A stretch of 21,988 nt of DNA from a virus. Where the stretch lies: the IMG/VR virus record IMGVR_UViG_3300042905_002876, positions 1 to 21,988 of that record; one strand, given 5' to 3'. How positions within the stretch are numbered: the first letter of the stretch is position 1; the number at the start of each line of letters is the position of its first letter. The notes beneath the pieces were generated by a model. That model made no database searches, was not told the DNA's origin, and was given only the letters and a program-made list of their open reading frames with translations. The position numbers and the translations under genes are program-made. This document shows, piece after piece, positions 14,283 through 21,810 of this stretch.

Positions 14283-14645
14283 ATGGCGCTCCCAGAAACC
14301 TACGCTTTCCCGATCGAGCAAGGTGCACCAGCTGAGCTGCACCTGAGGTTGAAGAGCGAGGAGTTGGAGGGCAATCCTCCAGTTCCCCTCACCGGATACA
14401 GCGCGAACTGGGAGATCTGGGATCCCAAGCGGCGGAAGAAATATGCAGAGGTGGCCGTGGATTGGCCTGATCGTCTCGACGGGCAGGTGCGCGGCAGGCT
14501 GACGGCTCAGCAGACGCTGGTGATCCCCACTAAAGCGGGGAAAGCGATTCACGATCTGCACCTATTCCCACCAGTCGGGGACAGTTTCTACGTAATCAAA
14601 GGCGCGGTCGTCGCCGAAGTCCGTGTTTCGAGGGATGCGCCGTGA
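14283..14645 (+). CDS. Small beta-rich protein preceding the collagen-like fibre (120 aa)
   Basis: It begins [20 protein letters not shown] at 14283. The pattern of a polar start, then [20 protein letters not shown], then [16 protein letters not shown] and a closing [12 protein letters not shown] is like the Ig-like N-terminal modules of baseplate or fibre proteins. Its stop overlaps the GTG start of the collagen-like fibre (GTGA), so the two are probably coupled. It may anchor or adapt the fibre to the virion; this is inference from adjacency. Confidence 0.6.
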
Positions 14646-16171
14646 TCGTCGAAGTTCTGATCCCTGGCATTCCTGGCCCTCCGGGGACCGGCGGGGGTGG
14701 TGTTTCGGTAAGCCTGGGCGCCACTGTGGCCGACGTGCTGGGGCTGACGGGGCAGCAGCTGACAGCCGATGACCCCGGGGCGGGTGCTGATCGGTTGGTG
14801 TTCTGGGACCACTCAGCCGGACGCCTGCGGCATCTGGCGCTCGGCGCCAACCTGACGATCACCGACACCACCATCGGCGCTGCCGGGGCCCAGGGCCCCG
14901 CCGGCCCACAGGGCCCGCAGGGCCCGACCGGGGCCACCGGGGCGGCGGGCCCTGCTGGAGCAGCAGGGACAGCGGGCGCGAAGGGCGACACTGGAGCGAC
15001 TGGTCCCCAGGGCCCTGCCGGCCCTGCTGGCCCTGCTGGCGCTCAAGGCCCTGCTGGCGCTCAAGGCCCTGCTGGTGCTCAGGGGCCGGCCGGCGCCACA
15101 GGCCCTGCTGGAGCAGACGGCACCGGATTCGTGATCCGTGGCACCGTCGCAACGGTTGCGGCTCTGAGCACGATCCAGGGCGCTGCAATCGGTGATGCCT
15201 ACAAGGTCACAGGCACAGGCGATGTCCACGTCTGGAGCGGCTCTGCGTGGGTGAACCTGGGGCCAATCCAGGGCCCGCAAGGCCCTGCTGGCCCGACCGG
15301 GACCACTGGTCCTCAAGGCCCTGCTGGCCAAACTGGAGCAACAGGACCAGCTGGGGCCAAGGGCGACACAGGAGCAACTGGCCCTGCTGGCCCCGCCGGA
15401 ACGAATGGCAGCGACGCCTATGAGGTAGCTGTTGCTCAGGGGTTTACCGGCACACGCACGCAATGGCTGGCGTCCCTGGTCGGCGCCCAGGGACCCACTG
15501 GTCCGGCAGGCCCTGCGGGGCCAACCGGAGCAACAGGCGCTACTGGGCCCCAAGGGCCTCAGGGCTTGAATGGCGACACCGGGGCAACAGGGCCACAGGG
15601 CCCCGCCGGCCCACAGGGTCCGGCCGGACCAGTTGGGGCAACAGGGCCGGCCGGCGCTGCCGGCAGCAGCGCCTACCAGGTGGCTGTGGCCAATGGGTTC
15701 TCCGGCACTGAGGCGCAGTGGCTGGCGTCCCTGGTCGGCACTGCCGGCGCCCAGGGCCCGCAGGGCCCGACCGGGGCCACCGGGGCGGCGGGCACCACCG
15801 GGGCCACCGGCGCCACCGGGGCGACTGGAGCCGCAGCCACCGTCGAAATCGGCACGGTCACCACTGGAGCAGCTGGATCGCTGGCAAGCGTGACCAACAG
15901 CGGCACCAGCTCTGCCGCCGTTTTCAATTTCACAATCCCCCGAGGTGACACCGGCGCCTCGGGTACTGGCGGTGGCAGCTCCACAGCCGTGCGCATCGAC
16001 TCCACGTCTACCGCGAACACGGTCTATGTCGGCAAGGCCCCGGCTGGTTCCAGCGAGGCTGCGGCCGTGTGGTCAATCACCAGGACCCAGTTCAGTGCTG
16101 CCGGGGTCCAGACCGGCAGCAGCACTATCACGGCTGTCACCTGGACAGGCCGCACGACCCACGCCTACTGA
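14642..16171 (+). CDS. Collagen-like tail fibre protein
   Basis: A 509-residue protein starts from a GTG at 14642 overlapping the previous stop. After an N-terminal domain (residues 1-80, starting [15 protein letters not shown]), four Gly-X-Y collagen blocks lie at about 14885-15120, 15268-15408, 15487-15665 and 15745-15835. They alternate with short folded modules: a [10 protein letters not shown]...GDAYKV...[10 protein letters not shown] unit (residues about 160-207), and two copies of an [23 protein letters not shown] unit (residues about 258-282 and 343-367). The C-terminal roughly 110 residues are beta-rich. Collagen blocks trimerise, so this is most likely a trimeric side or tail fibre for surface attachment. 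High internal repetition makes it prone to length change. Confidence 0.88.
14909..15793 (+). repeat. 42-bp exact direct repeat within collagen blocks
   Basis: The 42 bases at 14909-14950 recur exactly at 15752-15793; both begin CAGGGCCCGCAGGGCCCGAC. A second pair, beginning TGGCTGGCGTCCCTGGTCGG, is found at about 15465 and 15719, in front of the third and fourth collagen blocks. Short 18-bp units (Gly-Ala-Gln-Gly-Pro-Ala) also repeat three times near 15037. These give substrates for unequal recombination that would delete or add whole fibre blocks. Confidence 0.85.
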
Positions 16172-17713: not shown

Positions 17714-18190
17714 ATGAGAGAATCTGACCTTTTACCGTTTTACAACCGCCTCGCCAAGCTCGAAGGCTTGATGGAGGCCGTGCATTTGTCCTTACAGGAC
17801 AGTCGGCGCGAAGCCACAAGGTACCTACAGCGCGTGGATCAGCTGGAGAGTAGGCAGCTTGATATTGAACGCAGGATGGTTACATTTGAACAGTTTCAAG
17901 AGCTATCCAGCAAGGTAAGCACATTAGTCATCAATGATACAACAAGAGGCGAAAACGCTAGGTTAATTCAAGAGCTGTCAAGCAAGGTAGCCACACTTGA
18001 GAAAGGCGAAGCAGAAAGAATAGGTGGTGACAAAGAGAAGAAAAATGGCGTATCAACACTGCAGTTCTACCTAACACTGTCCGTTGCCATTGCTGCGTCA
18101 ATCATTGCACTTGGTCAGGCGGTGCTACCCTCGCTGATCAATCAACCGGCACCGCAGCAGACAATCTCACCGCCCCACGCCAAGCCATGA
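17714..18190 (+). CDS. XhlA-like holin or membrane lysis accessory protein
   Basis: A 158-residue protein with residues 8-105 as a coiled coil (an internal repeat reads FQELSSKVSTL at 61 and IQELSSKVATL at 85). One transmembrane segment spans about 116-140 (QFYLTLSVAIAASIIALGQA), followed by a short proline-rich tail. A coiled coil before a single C-terminal membrane span is the plan of XhlA-type proteins that act with holins; this one is longer than typical. It sits directly before the endolysin and has its own strong Shine-Dalgarno. Its stop overlaps the ATG at 18187. An i-spanin is less likely because those carry the membrane span at the N-terminus. Confidence 0.6.
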   Translation: MRESDLLPFYNRLAKLEGLMEAVHLSLQDSRREATRYLQRVDQLESRQLDIERRMVTFEQFQELSSKVSTLVINDTTRGENARLIQELSSKVATLEKGEAERIGGDKEKKNGVSTLQFYLTLSVAIAASIIALGQAVLPSLINQPAPQQTISPPHAKP

Positions 18191-18390
18191 GCAACACCAT
18201 CGTCAGGGCCTTAGTGGGTTGCGCAGTCATCTCCGCGCTAGGTGGGTTCGGCGCTCCCCTGTTTTGCGGCGGACGCGGGGCAGAATGCACTGATCAATGG
18301 CGGCAAGCTTCAATGGGCGCCCTGGCAGCTTCTGCCAGCCTCGGGACCCTGCTCGCCCGCCCCCCTGGTGGGCCTGGGGCCGAGCCCTGA
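18187..18390 (+). CDS. Short frame resembling a detached endolysin signal peptide, or small membrane protein
   Basis: The ATG at 18187 overlaps the preceding stop by four bases, the coupling seen throughout the operon, and opens a 67-residue frame. The first 20 residues (MSNTIVRALVGCAVISALGG) form a signal-like n- and h-region. Beyond about 18245 this frame becomes Cys/Arg/Pro-rich and looks non-coding. The adjacent frame continues SALPCFAADAGQ, which completes a hydrophobic core and an Ala-x-Ala-type cleavage region. One base fewer in the GGG run at 18244-18246 would join the two into a secreted endolysin. Alternatives are a genuine 67-residue membrane protein or a read-through site. I favour a broken or frameshifted signal peptide. 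Confidence 0.45.
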   Translation: MSNTIVRALVGCAVISALGGFGAPLFCGGRGAECTDQWRQASMGALAASASLGTLLARPPGGPGAEP

Positions 18391-19609
18391 GCCGGTCCGC
18401 TGCCGGAAACCTGCCGCAACGGTGCTCCCCGTCATGCCGGATCTTGCTTCAGCAGCAGCTCAATTCACCAACCAACCCCGTCAGCTCGCCGCGTTTCGCG
18501 CCGTTGATCAGCTGCTGACATCACAGCAACGGGATGAGTTCTGGGTCACCTTCAACGGCACAAACCCGCCGGCTACCGAGGCGCCGGTAGCTGATCAAGG
18601 TGGTTGGCTGGCTCAATGCCTCAAGATCGTCCAGGAGTTCGAGGGGTGCAGGCTGGCGGCCTACCCCGATCCCGCCAGTGGTGGAGAACCGTGGACGATT
18701 GGGTGGGGCACCACCACCTACTCCAACGGTCAACGGGTGAAACAGGGCGATCGAATCACCCAGGCTCAAGCTGATTCGCTGCTGATCACCAGGCTTACGG
18801 GTGACTGGCAGGTGCAGGCCAAGCGGATCCCGACATGGGGCCGGATGACCCAGAATCAACGCGCTGCGCTTGTTAGCTTCAGCTACAACTGCGGTGCGGC
18901 GTGGTTCGGCAGCGAAGGATTTAACACCCTGACCTCGGTGGTGCGGGCCGCTGATTGGCCAGCTGTACCCAAGACCCTGATGCTCTACGTCAACCCTGGC
19001 AGCTCAGTGGAAGCCGGCCTTCGGCGGCGGCGGCGGGCCGAGGGGGCATTGTTCGCTGGACAGGCGTCAGCTCCTGCGGTGGCGGGACGCATGGTCGGAC
19101 CCGGCAAGCGGCCAGATCTGAAGCCAGGCGATCACCACCTGATCGCCAACGACGTGAACCAGACCATCACGGCTTACACCCACGATGGCGTCAAGGTTTG
19201 GCAGGTGCCATGCCTGTGCCGTGGGCAGGGCGGAGAATCGGAGTGGAACACCACCGGTAGCGACACACCACCCGGCCTCTACCTCGTCGGCAAGGTCCAC
19301 CGCGATTACGACGATGACCCCTCAGAGCGGTTCAGCGAGGAGCGGCAGTCCTACGGCTGGTATTCGCTCGACTTGATGGGCCAGGAGGGCCAGGAGGGCC
19401 CCGGAAGCCGCAACGGGCGCGATGGGATCATGATCCATGGCGGCGGCACGGCTTGCGGCTTTCCCGGGGCCTGGGCGCCGCGGCAAGAGCTGCACCCGAC
19501 CCTGGGCTGCATCCGGATGCACAACGAGGACATTCGCGATCGCGTGCTGCCGTTGCTGCTGCTCGGGCGGATCTGGGTCAGCGTCTATCAGGAGGCGCCG
19601 CCAGCCTGA
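18242..19609 (+). CDS. Endolysin: GH24 lysozyme fused to YkuD L,D-transpeptidase
   Basis: This 455-residue frame opens with GTG just after an in-frame stop (18239-18241); an internal ATG at 18434 is an alternative start. Residues about 115-270 are a T4-type lysozyme that cleaves glycan strands. The proposed catalytic Glu134 and Asp143 have the T4 spacing of nine residues, Thr152 follows in EPWTIGWGTT, and the domain ends LRRRRRAEGALFAG. Residues about 290-450 are an L,D-transpeptidase (YkuD) domain with MIHGGGTACGFPG (His399) and TLGCIRM (Cys423, Arg425). The usual His before Gly-Cys is Leu here. YkuD enzymes form or exchange peptide cross-links, or trim stem peptides. The fusion thus joins a glycan cutter and a stem-peptide enzyme in one protein. 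The N-terminal 30 residues appear to need the signal sequence in the other frame. Confidence 0.88.
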   Translation: MGSALPCFAADAGQNALINGGKLQWAPWQLLPASGPCSPAPLVGLGPSPEPVRCRKPAATVLPVMPDLASAAAQFTNQPRQLAAFRAVDQLLTSQQRDEFWVTFNGTNPPATEAPVADQGGWLAQCLKIVQEFEGCRLAAYPDPASGGEPWTIGWGTTTYSNGQRVKQGDRITQAQADSLLITRLTGDWQVQAKRIPTWGRMTQNQRAALVSFSYNCGAAWFGSEGFNTLTSVVRAADWPAVPKTLMLYVNPGSSVEAGLRRRRRAEGALFAGQASAPAVAGRMVGPGKRPDLKPGDHHLIANDVNQTITAYTHDGVKVWQVPCLCRGQGGESEWNTTGSDTPPGLYLVGKVHRDYDDDPSERFSEERQSYGWYSLDLMGQEGQEGPGSRNGRDGIMIHGGGTACGFPGAWAPRQELHPTLGCIRMHNEDIRDRVLPLLLLGRIWVSVYQEAPPA

Positions 19610-20079: not shown

Positions 20080-21081
20080 ATGGCATCGCTCAACATCTAC
20101 CGGGGCCGGCTCTACCTGCTGGCCAGGGTGCCCAGGCGTGATGGACGGCCGGGATTGGCGCAGGCACGGATCGCCTTGCGGATGGACGACACGCCGGTCA
20201 ACCGCAGGGCGGCAGCCAAGCAGCTGCAGACCCTGGAGCGGCAGCTGCGCGAGGGTTCGTTCAGCTGGGCCTACTGGAGCGATCAATCCGAGGGGTTGAC
20301 CTGGCGGGAGGCAATCGCCAAGCTCTACCGAGCTCGGGTGGTGCTGGGGCGGACCAGTGAGACCACGTGGGAGATCAACTACATGGGGCGACTTCGACGG
20401 ATCCCGCCAGATAGTGAATGCACAACGGAAAGCATTGCCGCAGCACTTGAGCGTTACAGCCGCAATAGCTGCAGCTACAAGGAGCTGTTCTATCTGCTAC
20501 GGCATCTTTCGCGGTTGGCTGCTGTGCCGTTTCCGGAAATGCCAGTTCCAACCTATTCACAGGCCGAGCTAGTGCCAGTTCCAACCGATGACCAGATCGT
20601 GGCCTGGGTTGAGAGCGCGGGGCCAGCCGGCTGGTACTTCGGCATGATGGCCACCTATGGCTTGCGCCCCCACGAGATCGAGGGGGCGGTGCTGATCGAA
20701 CGGGATTACTGCCAGGTCCAAGACGCCACGAAGACGGGCTTTCGCACCGTGATCCCGCTGCCTCGCGAGTGGGTGGATCGGTTCCGGCTGCATGATCGGC
20801 GGCTGCGGCCAACCCTCCAGGGAGCGGCGCACGATCGGGTCGACGCGGTGGCGAAGTGGCTGAGCAAGGAGCTGCGCCGGCTAGGCCTCCCGTGGCGACC
20901 CTATGCGCTCCGGCATGCGTTTGCCGGCAGGCTGTGGCGGGAGGGTGGTAGCAGGTTGGACATCTACACCGCTGCCAGGCTGATGGGGCATTCAGCGACT
21001 CAGCACTCCCGCACCTACCGGGCGCACATCCAGCCGCATGCGGTGGCGGAGGCGGCGGAGAGGGCGTTGATGGGGGAGTAA
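20080..21081 (+). CDS. int: Tyrosine recombinase / phage integrase
   Basis: A 333-residue integrase. The N-terminal part (MASLNIYRGRLYLLARVPRR) looks like an arm-DNA-binding start, residues 60-150 are the core-binding helices, and the catalytic domain begins near 165. Catalytic residues by pattern are Arg196 in TYGLRPHEI, Lys218 in ATKTG, Arg278 in PYALRHAFAG, His304 in LMGHS and nucleophile Tyr313 in SRTYRAH. The histidine normally three residues before the second arginine is Tyr275 here, a change also common in cyanobacterial integrases as far as I recall. All other active-site positions are intact, so it is probably functional. It would insert and excise the phage at attP/attB. It ends exactly where the convergent minus-strand operon ends. 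Confidence 0.93.
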   Translation: MASLNIYRGRLYLLARVPRRDGRPGLAQARIALRMDDTPVNRRAAAKQLQTLERQLREGSFSWAYWSDQSEGLTWREAIAKLYRARVVLGRTSETTWEINYMGRLRRIPPDSECTTESIAAALERYSRNSCSYKELFYLLRHLSRLAAVPFPEMPVPTYSQAELVPVPTDDQIVAWVESAGPAGWYFGMMATYGLRPHEIEGAVLIERDYCQVQDATKTGFRTVIPLPREWVDRFRLHDRRLRPTLQGAAHDRVDAVAKWLSKELRRLGLPWRPYALRHAFAGRLWREGGSRLDIYTAARLMGHSATQHSRTYRAHIQPHAVAEAAERALMGE

Positions 21082-21354
21082 TCAGCGCCAGGTTCTGTGC
21101 TTCTCAGCAACCCATTCGTTGCCGTCGTAGCTCTCAATTTCCCATTCAACATCGTCGGGAATCTCGACAACTATCAACGATGCAAGGCTGCCGCTTGCGC
21201 GTTCCCCCAGCTTTTCGACGCAGGCAACAAGACTGGGATCATTGCGTTTGATTTTGCCAGCAAAACCATAGCCGTCCCACTCAAGGCCAAGCTCTTGATA
21301 GGCGGCTTCCGACAGGGAGTAGCCGCCGTACTCGTTGTTGATGACAATCTTCAT
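21082..21354 (-). CDS. Conserved hypothetical phage protein (90 aa)
   Basis: The sequence MKIVINNEYGGYSLSEAAYQ and the closing VVEIPDDVEWEIESYDGNEW are a pattern I recognise from many small phage and prophage proteins of unknown function. There is an N-terminal strand with a YGG turn, a helix, a variable centre and a C-terminal acidic strand pair. Its start overlaps the stop of the helix-turn-helix gene (ATGA), so it is the last gene of the minus-strand operon. Its stop lies directly against the integrase stop. No catalytic motif is visible. Confidence 0.8.
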   Translation of the reverse strand: MKIVINNEYGGYSLSEAAYQELGLEWDGYGFAGKIKRNDPSLVACVEKLGERASGSLASLIVVEIPDDVEWEIESYDGNEWVAEKHRTWR

Positions 21355-21593
21355 GGCGCGGTGGTGGCAATGGGTTGATTCTGTATGGCTCCGGGGACGA
21401 TAGCCCCCACGTTCACCCGCACCATCCGGCGCTGGGCGTTGACGGGGGCGAGGTTGATCAGCTCACGGCCCCACCGCCAGCGGCTGCGACGGTTGGCGTC
21501 AGCTTCGGCGATCAAGCGATTGATGTGGCTGACGCTGACGCCCAAGGCATCGGCCGCCTCTTCCTTGGTGAGCAAGCGGCGGGGTTCAGTCAT
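21351..21593 (-). CDS. Helix-turn-helix protein, excisionase-like
   Basis: The ATG read from 21593 gives an 80-residue protein; a GTG one codon earlier is equally possible. Residues 7-30 (LLTKEEAADALGVSVSHINR) are a clear helix-turn-helix of the MerR/excisionase (HTH_17-like) kind, followed by a basic wing (RRSRWRWGREL) and a tail. Small proteins of this type near an integrase often direct excision or repress early genes. It overlaps the zinc-ribbon gene upstream by eight bases and the 90-residue gene downstream by four. The exact role, excisionase or repressor, cannot be read from sequence. Confidence 0.72.
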   Translation of the reverse strand: MTEPRRLLTKEEAADALGVSVSHINRLIAEADANRRSRWRWGRELINLAPVNAQRRMVRVNVGAIVPGAIQNQPIATTAP

Positions 21594-21810
21594 CACCAGG
21601 ACTCACGATCACGCCCGACCGCGTCCAGGAGACGCGACCCGGCGGAAGGTTTACGGGATCGGCCTGGAACGTCTCCCAGACCCGATGGCACCGTGCGCAA
21701 CTGTGCATCCTGACCTGGCCAACATCAGATGGGATCCGCCTGGTTCGCTCACATTCATGCTTCCTGGATCGGAAGCCGCAATGAGCGCACGTGAGGGGAA
21801 CGGTTTTCAC
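21586..21810 (-). CDS. Small zinc-ribbon protein (74 aa)
   Basis: A GTG read from 21810 starts MKTVPLTCAHCGFRSRKHEC. Two CxxC knuckles, Cys8/Cys11 and Cys38/Cys41, are spaced 26 residues apart, the plan of a zinc ribbon; a basic stretch lies between them. An in-frame extension to 21933 is Pro/Arg-rich and would overlap the upstream gene, so it is rejected. The start overlaps the preceding stop by one base (TAGTG). A nucleic-acid or protein binding role in phage regulation is likely. Confidence 0.68.
   Translation of the reverse strand: MKTVPLTCAHCGFRSRKHECERTRRIPSDVGQVRMHSCARCHRVWETFQADPVNLPPGRVSWTRSGVIVSPGDD

Follow-up and report, generated by a model that had tools for sequence, protein, structure and literature searches.

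The lysis locus and its phage

The window, by which we mean the whole stretch of DNA analyzed, has 21,988 nt and covers positions 1 to 21,988 of the IMG/VR record IMGVR_UViG_3300042905_002876. It is a fragment of a longer contig, because a second record of 28,977 bases (IMGVR_UViG_3300034106_003220, L002) contains all of it at 99.99% identity. The genes considered here, with reference to a relative whose lysin is 93% identical (L003), are the following.

17714-18190, + strand: 158 aa protein with a coiled coil predicted by eye and one C-terminal transmembrane (TM) segment (hydropathy peak 2.1); same gene order in L003
18187-18390, + strand: 67 aa small membrane protein (hydropathy 1.9); frame kept in L003
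18434-19609, + strand: endolysin gene, 391 aa, ATG start, stop included; ATG kept in L003; Pfam matches to GH24 and YkuD
20080-21081, + strand: tyrosine integrase (phrog_1 integrase, E 5e-13; PF00589 match below threshold)

The initial annotation placed the start of the endolysin gene at GTG 18242, which comparison of the window with its nearest relative rules out, as both the start codon and the frame are broken there. In L003 this GTG is replaced by GCG, and the extended frame contains an in-frame stop upstream of ATG 18434, while the ATG itself is conserved. The gene therefore runs from 18434 to 19609 and encodes 391 residues. The small ORF that overlaps the extended frame (18187-18390) is intact in L003.

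Together with the lysin, the two upstream genes look like a lysis cassette, in which the 158 aa protein is a candidate lysis-cassette membrane protein and the 67 aa protein a candidate holin. Homologs of the 67 aa protein lie directly 5′ of YkuD lysins in three other phages (L035, L057 and L080). Searches against PHROGs matched none of the cassette proteins to a named holin family. The 67 aa protein also carries a pair of cysteines and possibly represents a new holin family. The lysin itself has no signal peptide or TM segment, and the same holds for 121 of its 124 relatives, with the LdtB control scoring positive; export or membrane anchoring, which is typical (not strictly defining) of cellular L,D-transpeptidases (LDTs), is thus not found here. 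Consequently, the lysin would presumably reach the wall only once holins have opened the membrane.

The phage is probably temperate, judging from the integrase and from a small ORF close to it (21351-21596, - strand) that resembles a helix-turn-helix excisionase by eye. Its major capsid protein is nearest to that of the Prochlorococcus siphophage PSS2 (45%), so that the host is probably a picocyanobacterium. A protein of the tail region (14642-16171) has five stretches of long collagen-like repeats of the Gly-X-Y type (PF01391).

A GH24 lysozyme fused to a YkuD domain

In phage lysins, the enzyme that cuts the glycan is normally accompanied by an amidase or by a peptidase from one of the known cutting families, and the YkuD fold is known mainly for 3-3 cross-linking and for anchoring proteins to the wall. 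The lysin of the window joins a GH24 lysozyme to a YkuD (L,D-transpeptidase-fold) domain, as listed below. Catalytic residues (E134 to R425) keep the numbering of the initial annotation, which counts along the 455-codon ORF 18242-19609 (+).

18434-18604, + strand: N-terminal helical segment, residues 1-57 of 391, with the motif HQLAAxxALDxxLTxEQRxxF
18635-19042, + strand: GH24 phage lysozyme domain (PF00959; phmmer; PHROG endolysin families)
18641-18643, 18668-18670 and 18695-18697, + strand: codons of E134, D143 and T152, the GH24 triad
19043-19090, + strand: linker, a weakly conserved stretch between the domains
19094-19606, + strand: YkuD domain (PF03734, E 7e-9; AF2 pLDDT 85; Foldseek matches 1y7m, 6xj6, 7o21 and 7uo3)
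19436-19438, + strand: codon of the catalytic His399, invariant in 115/115 domains and paired with the catalytic His of LdtB
19508-19516, + strand: codons of Cys423-Ile424-Arg425, the nucleophile and the transpeptidase-type Arg; Cys and Arg invariant in 115/115 domains and paired with SHGCVR of LdtB

Both domains are recognized by Pfam above their curated cut-offs: PF00959 (Phage_lysozyme) at residues 132-267 with an E-value of 2.3e-25 (89.8 bits, cut-off 22.3), and PF03734 at residues 299-432 with an E-value of 7e-9 (36.8 bits, cut-off 23.4). The fusion proposed from the sequence is therefore real rather than a chance match, and the catalytic residues, including the triad, H399, L421, C423, I424 and R425, sit exactly where the initial annotation had placed them.

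The GH24 part aligns by phmmer to solved lysozymes of Acinetobacter phages (9kbq and 6et6), and PHROGs assign the first part of the protein to endolysin families. By its E-D-T triad, this domain would be a muramidase; nearly all GH24-YkuD relatives have an E-D-T or E-C-T triad, with A in place of T in 3 records. The N-terminal segment is not hydrophobic, lacks a signal peptide, and behaves as a mobile module that recurs in front of Phage_lysozyme2-YkuD proteins and standalone YkuD proteins, with a similar segment in the GH24-M15 lysin of phage S-CBS3. It matched no known family and might serve in wall or host targeting. Synonymous divergence between the window and its relatives L003 and L029 is ~0.03 in the YkuD part (19091-19606) and 0.15 in GH24, a difference that suggests recombination at the domain junction.

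The YkuD domain contains the motif HG...(S/T)XGC-phi-R as H399-G and T420-L-G-C423-I-R425, and all 63 family members compared with PF03734 match it at E <= 0.01. Across 115 distinct domains, His399, Thr420, Gly, Cys423 and Arg425 are invariant, and the distance between His and Cys is constant at 24 residues, compared with 16 in LdtB. When the family profile is aligned to E. coli LdtB, its motif falls exactly on the LdtB catalytic His and SHGCVR, and the phage domains prove to carry 8 additional residues, inserted in a stretch with a near-invariant GWPGAW. The domain is under purifying selection, with a dN/dS of ~0.06-0.19 in divergent pairs; these were used because the YkuD parts of the window and L003 differ by too few synonymous changes.

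The residue preceding Gly-Cys, where a change from His to Leu had been suggested as a possible influence on activity, proves variable, with H in 56 of the 115 domains, L in 49, Y in 4, R in 3, Q in 2 and M in 1. The published consensus, phi-G-phi-H-G-(S/T)-X10-(S/T)-X-G-C-phi-R-(M/L), likewise allows any residue there (PMC12729407). We therefore reject this substitution as a general functional switch, since the site varies freely across the family.

Structure prediction points to the same fold. Sequence profiles searched against solved structures gave chance matches only and no LDT, so that a search by fold was needed. The model of the full-length protein has moderate confidence (pLDDT 70), and its Foldseek matches are GH24 lysozymes followed, lower down, by the L,D-transpeptidases 4lpq and 5bmq. 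Modeled alone by AF2 from a 73-sequence alignment, the YkuD domain reaches a pLDDT of 85 and a pTM of 0.84. By E-value, this model matches B. subtilis YkuD (1y7m) first, and a YkuD beta-sandwich is indicated by Foldseek probabilities of 1.00 to 1y7m, 4a1i, 6xj7 and 7o21. TM-scores are 0.57 for Pgp2, 0.55 for Bd1075, 0.53 for Tlde1a, 0.51 for YkuD, ~0.47 for LdtMt enzymes and 0.44-0.46 for DpaA; at ~0.5-0.57 the best of these are modest, and they confirm the YkuD fold while not discriminating between reactions. In a library of viral protein models (BFVD), the top match was F5B3Y2 (250 aa, 54%), evidently gp112 of phage S-CRM01, and more distant YkuD-like folds were found in other cyanophage proteins, one of them with GH19 (S-N03).

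A phage YkuD family with exchangeable partners

Scanning IMG/VR with the whole protein returned 19 loci, and scans with YkuD alignments returned 414 and 476 relatives, so that ~476 contigs encode this phage YkuD family. Among 124 distinct proteins drawn from the best 80 of the 414 and the best 80 of the 476 relatives, which do not give unbiased frequencies, YkuD is joined to GH73 in 36, to GH24 in 29, to GH19 in 8 and to Phage_lysozyme2 in 7. The combination of the window is thus recurrent in other phages, where the initial annotation had proposed to look for it. The GH19 domain lies C-terminal to YkuD, which reverses the domain order. The remaining 44 of the 124 listed proteins lack a recognized partner, some of them being interrupted by contig ends, and 14 of these 44 have an N-terminal segment of ~65 residues or more. 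Every partner in the 80 fused proteins listed is a glycan cutter, and YkuD thereby fills the slot of the peptide cutter. A plasmid search for the family gave no match, and cellular relatives, sought in one scan of genome contigs by narrow patterns, were limited to a weak match in Planctomycetota.

Matches among phage records were confined to five records of Synechococcus phages. Isolates with the family are S-CRM01, S-CBS4 and B23, all infecting Synechococcus, and in each of them the YkuD domain is unannotated. S-CRM01 (NC_015569) has the same arrangement as the window, with GH24 followed by YkuD of the same family (~54% identity), but distributes it over two overlapping annotated genes, gp113 and gp112; the frame breaks inside the end of GH24, and the final stretch of the lysozyme forms the start of gp112. 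This split over two frames lies at 2776-2866 of the S-CRM01 locus (L022), beside a short A run. It may stem from an error in sequencing or from frameshifting, or the gene may truly be divided; some relatives are intact. The S-CBS4 protein gp063, annotated as N-acetylmuramidase/endolysin with no mention of YkuD, ends in a YkuD domain of the family (52% identity) but uses a GH73 glucosaminidase as its glycan cutter. In B23 gp319, which is annotated as hypothetical, the YkuD domain (46% identity) comes first and is followed by a GH19-like domain. Finally, the S-CBS3 lysozyme gp23 resembles the window lysin in its GH24 domain (~50% identical) and in an N-terminal segment of like kind, but has Peptidase_M15_3 where the window lysin has YkuD.

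YkuD domains in phage lysins are already known, being catalogued but rare, and the initial view of a transpeptidase as unexpected in a lysis enzyme was overstated. In PhaLP, YkuD forms a cluster that occurs 10 times among the lytic proteins of phages and is placed with the peptidases (PMC8310338), and endolysin domains listed elsewhere include YkuD (PMC5017753). A single gut phage lysin is reported to combine GH25, choline-binding repeats and YkuD (PMC13284279); it differs from the window lysin in partner and lineage. The L,D-transpeptidase gp80 of phage Mic1 is the product of a late gene with a suggested role in lysis (PMC11237433); it was not matched by our family and therefore seems to belong to a different YkuD lineage. 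Our literature search found no description of a cyanophage family joining GH24, GH73 or GH19 to YkuD. What is new is the size of the family, its swapping of partners, and the possible existence of lysins that consist of YkuD only.

Such YkuD-only lysins are suggested by several contigs in which the YkuD gene stands alone. In two examples (G002, 48 kb, and G003, 67 kb), six-frame family searches of the contig found no GH24, Phage_lysozyme2 or GH73, with the proviso that these contigs are possibly incomplete and may encode lysins of other families. For G003 the absence rests on the six-frame searches, because picking the longest ORFs missed the YkuD gene itself. A search for GH19 gave no signal anywhere, controls included, and is uninformative about the absence of that family. 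A third contig of 38 kb (G004), which also encodes terminase, portal, capsid and tail proteins, has its sole Phage_lysozyme2 domain within an ORF of 1046 aa, probably a tail gene.

What the YkuD domain may do in lysis

We propose, with a probability of roughly 0.6, that the protein is an endolysin of two enzymes that depends on a holin, and that its YkuD domain attacks the mDAP–D-Ala bond and cleaves or caps the stem rather than cross-linking it. Being the endolysin of a temperate siphophage and lacking an export signal, it would depend on a holin, possibly the 67 aa protein, for access to the wall. GH24 would cleave glycan strands with its E-D-T triad, and YkuD would act as a live Cys-His acyltransferase, whose Cys423 attacks the mDAP-D-Ala bond of a stem at the L-center carbonyl of mDAP3. 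The resulting acyl-enzyme could be resolved by water or by a small amine or D-amino acid. In one outcome, 4-3 cross-links would be opened where their donor stem is used: the D-Ala4 of the donor stem carries the 4-3 cross-link, and attack on mDAP3-D-Ala4 would therefore open it, with YkuD presumably accepting cross-linked stems. In the other, free stems would be trimmed or capped and so be lost to renewed cross-linking during the cutting of the glycan. We infer the catalytic activity, the bond attacked, and the preference for cleavage or capping over net cross-linking. A destructive role is favored because YkuD is fused exclusively to glycan cutters (80/80), occupies the position of a peptidase in S-CBS3, and lacks an export signal; on these grounds, the cleaving or blocking role suggested in the initial annotation appears the most plausible.

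Enzymes with this fold and related activities are known. Csd6, Pgp2 and Bd1075 are LD-carboxypeptidases (PMC8938487), LdtCd2/3 have LD-endopeptidase activity (PMC12729407), DpaA is a YkuD-type amidase (PMC10653827), and the toxic Tlde1a both trims and exchanges (PMC9638812). Pgp2 of C. jejuni and Bd1075 of B. bacteriovorus, which gave the best TM-scores, share the Cys-His active site, but they are exported shape enzymes with an NTF2 domain and with Ala or Val rather than Arg at Cys+2 (PMC8938487). Neither feature of the Csd6/Pgp2/Bd1075 subgroup is found here: all 115 domains have Arg at Cys+2, and Pfam detects GH24 and YkuD as the only domains of the window lysin, with no NTF2 domain. B. subtilis YkuD (1y7m) and E. 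coli LdtB share the fold and the HG...GC[IV]R motif with the window domain, which differs from them in its 8-residue insertion relative to LdtB, its lack of an export signal and its fusion to a lysozyme.

Arg at Cys+2 is typical of L,D-transpeptidases, with Ala or Val in the hydrolases Csd6/Pgp2, Bd1075 and DpaA (PMC8938487, PMC10653827). The transpeptidase-type Arg425, being invariant, argues against a pure hydrolase, so that exchange, or capping with small amines, has to be taken seriously as an alternative. It is conceivable, though less likely than not, that the viral YkuD has turned wall-breaker altogether: as an L,D-endopeptidase it would open 4-3 (and 3-3) cross-links and, in its glycosidase-free forms, suffice as the sole endolysin of a phage. 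We think it rather unlikely that YkuD is solely an exchanger or capper similar to Tlde1, which would swap D-Ala4 for D-amino acids or amines, consume donor stems and hydrolyze few cross-links, leaving lysis to the lysozyme. The invariant Arg fits this role, and Tlde1a, one of the T6SS effectors that come with a T6SS context and an immunity gene, is matched by this phage-encoded domain in fold only. Moreover, replacing the His before Gly-Cys in Tlde1a (H129A) preserves exchange and greatly reduces cross-linking (PMC9638812), and by analogy a similar shift is possible for the half of the phage family without that His. The other half, however, retains it, and standalone YkuD lysins on contigs without a glycosidase would be left with no lytic activity.

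Other roles fit less of the evidence than cleavage or capping within a two-enzyme endolysin. Endolysins often have binding domains, and Pfam recognizes no other candidate in the window lysin, which would suit YkuD as a wall-binding module for stem peptides with dispensable catalysis; this is very unlikely, as binding would not demand the invariance of the active-site His, Thr, Cys and Arg in 115/115 domains, and standalone YkuD forms exist. It is more doubtful still that YkuD makes 3-3 cross-links or anchors the protein to the wall, for instance guarding the wall until lysis or during lysogeny: the nearest family by name is that of the L,D-transpeptidases and Arg425 is kept, but the domain is joined to wall cutters in 80 of the 124 listed proteins and, having no export signal, would meet the wall only at lysis. 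Least probable of all is a DpaA-like amidase that substitutes for a spanin by freeing outer-membrane proteins from the wall at lysis, since DpaA, although among the fold matches (TM 0.44-0.46) and in keeping with the lack of a recognized spanin among the cassette proteins scanned, has a closed pocket and, like YafK, a buried Ala at Cys+2 where the phage family has its invariant Arg (PMC10653827), and Lpp-type linkage is not established in cyanobacteria.

Implications for cyanophage lysis

The occurrence of YkuD beside four unrelated glycan cutters (GH24, GH73, GH19 and Phage_lysozyme2) across hundreds of viral contigs makes this domain a real and recurrent part of the phage lysis machinery; its most likely task is to break or cap peptide links in the wall. 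The annotation is thereby corrected for the cultured cyanophages S-CBS4, S-CRM01 and B23, so that the proposed activity can be tested with isolates. If the domains cleave, they would be natural L,D-specific endopeptidases, and would allow a test of what makes a hydrolase out of a transpeptidase that retains its Arg. They may also draw attention to how cyanobacterial walls are cross-linked, about which little is known.
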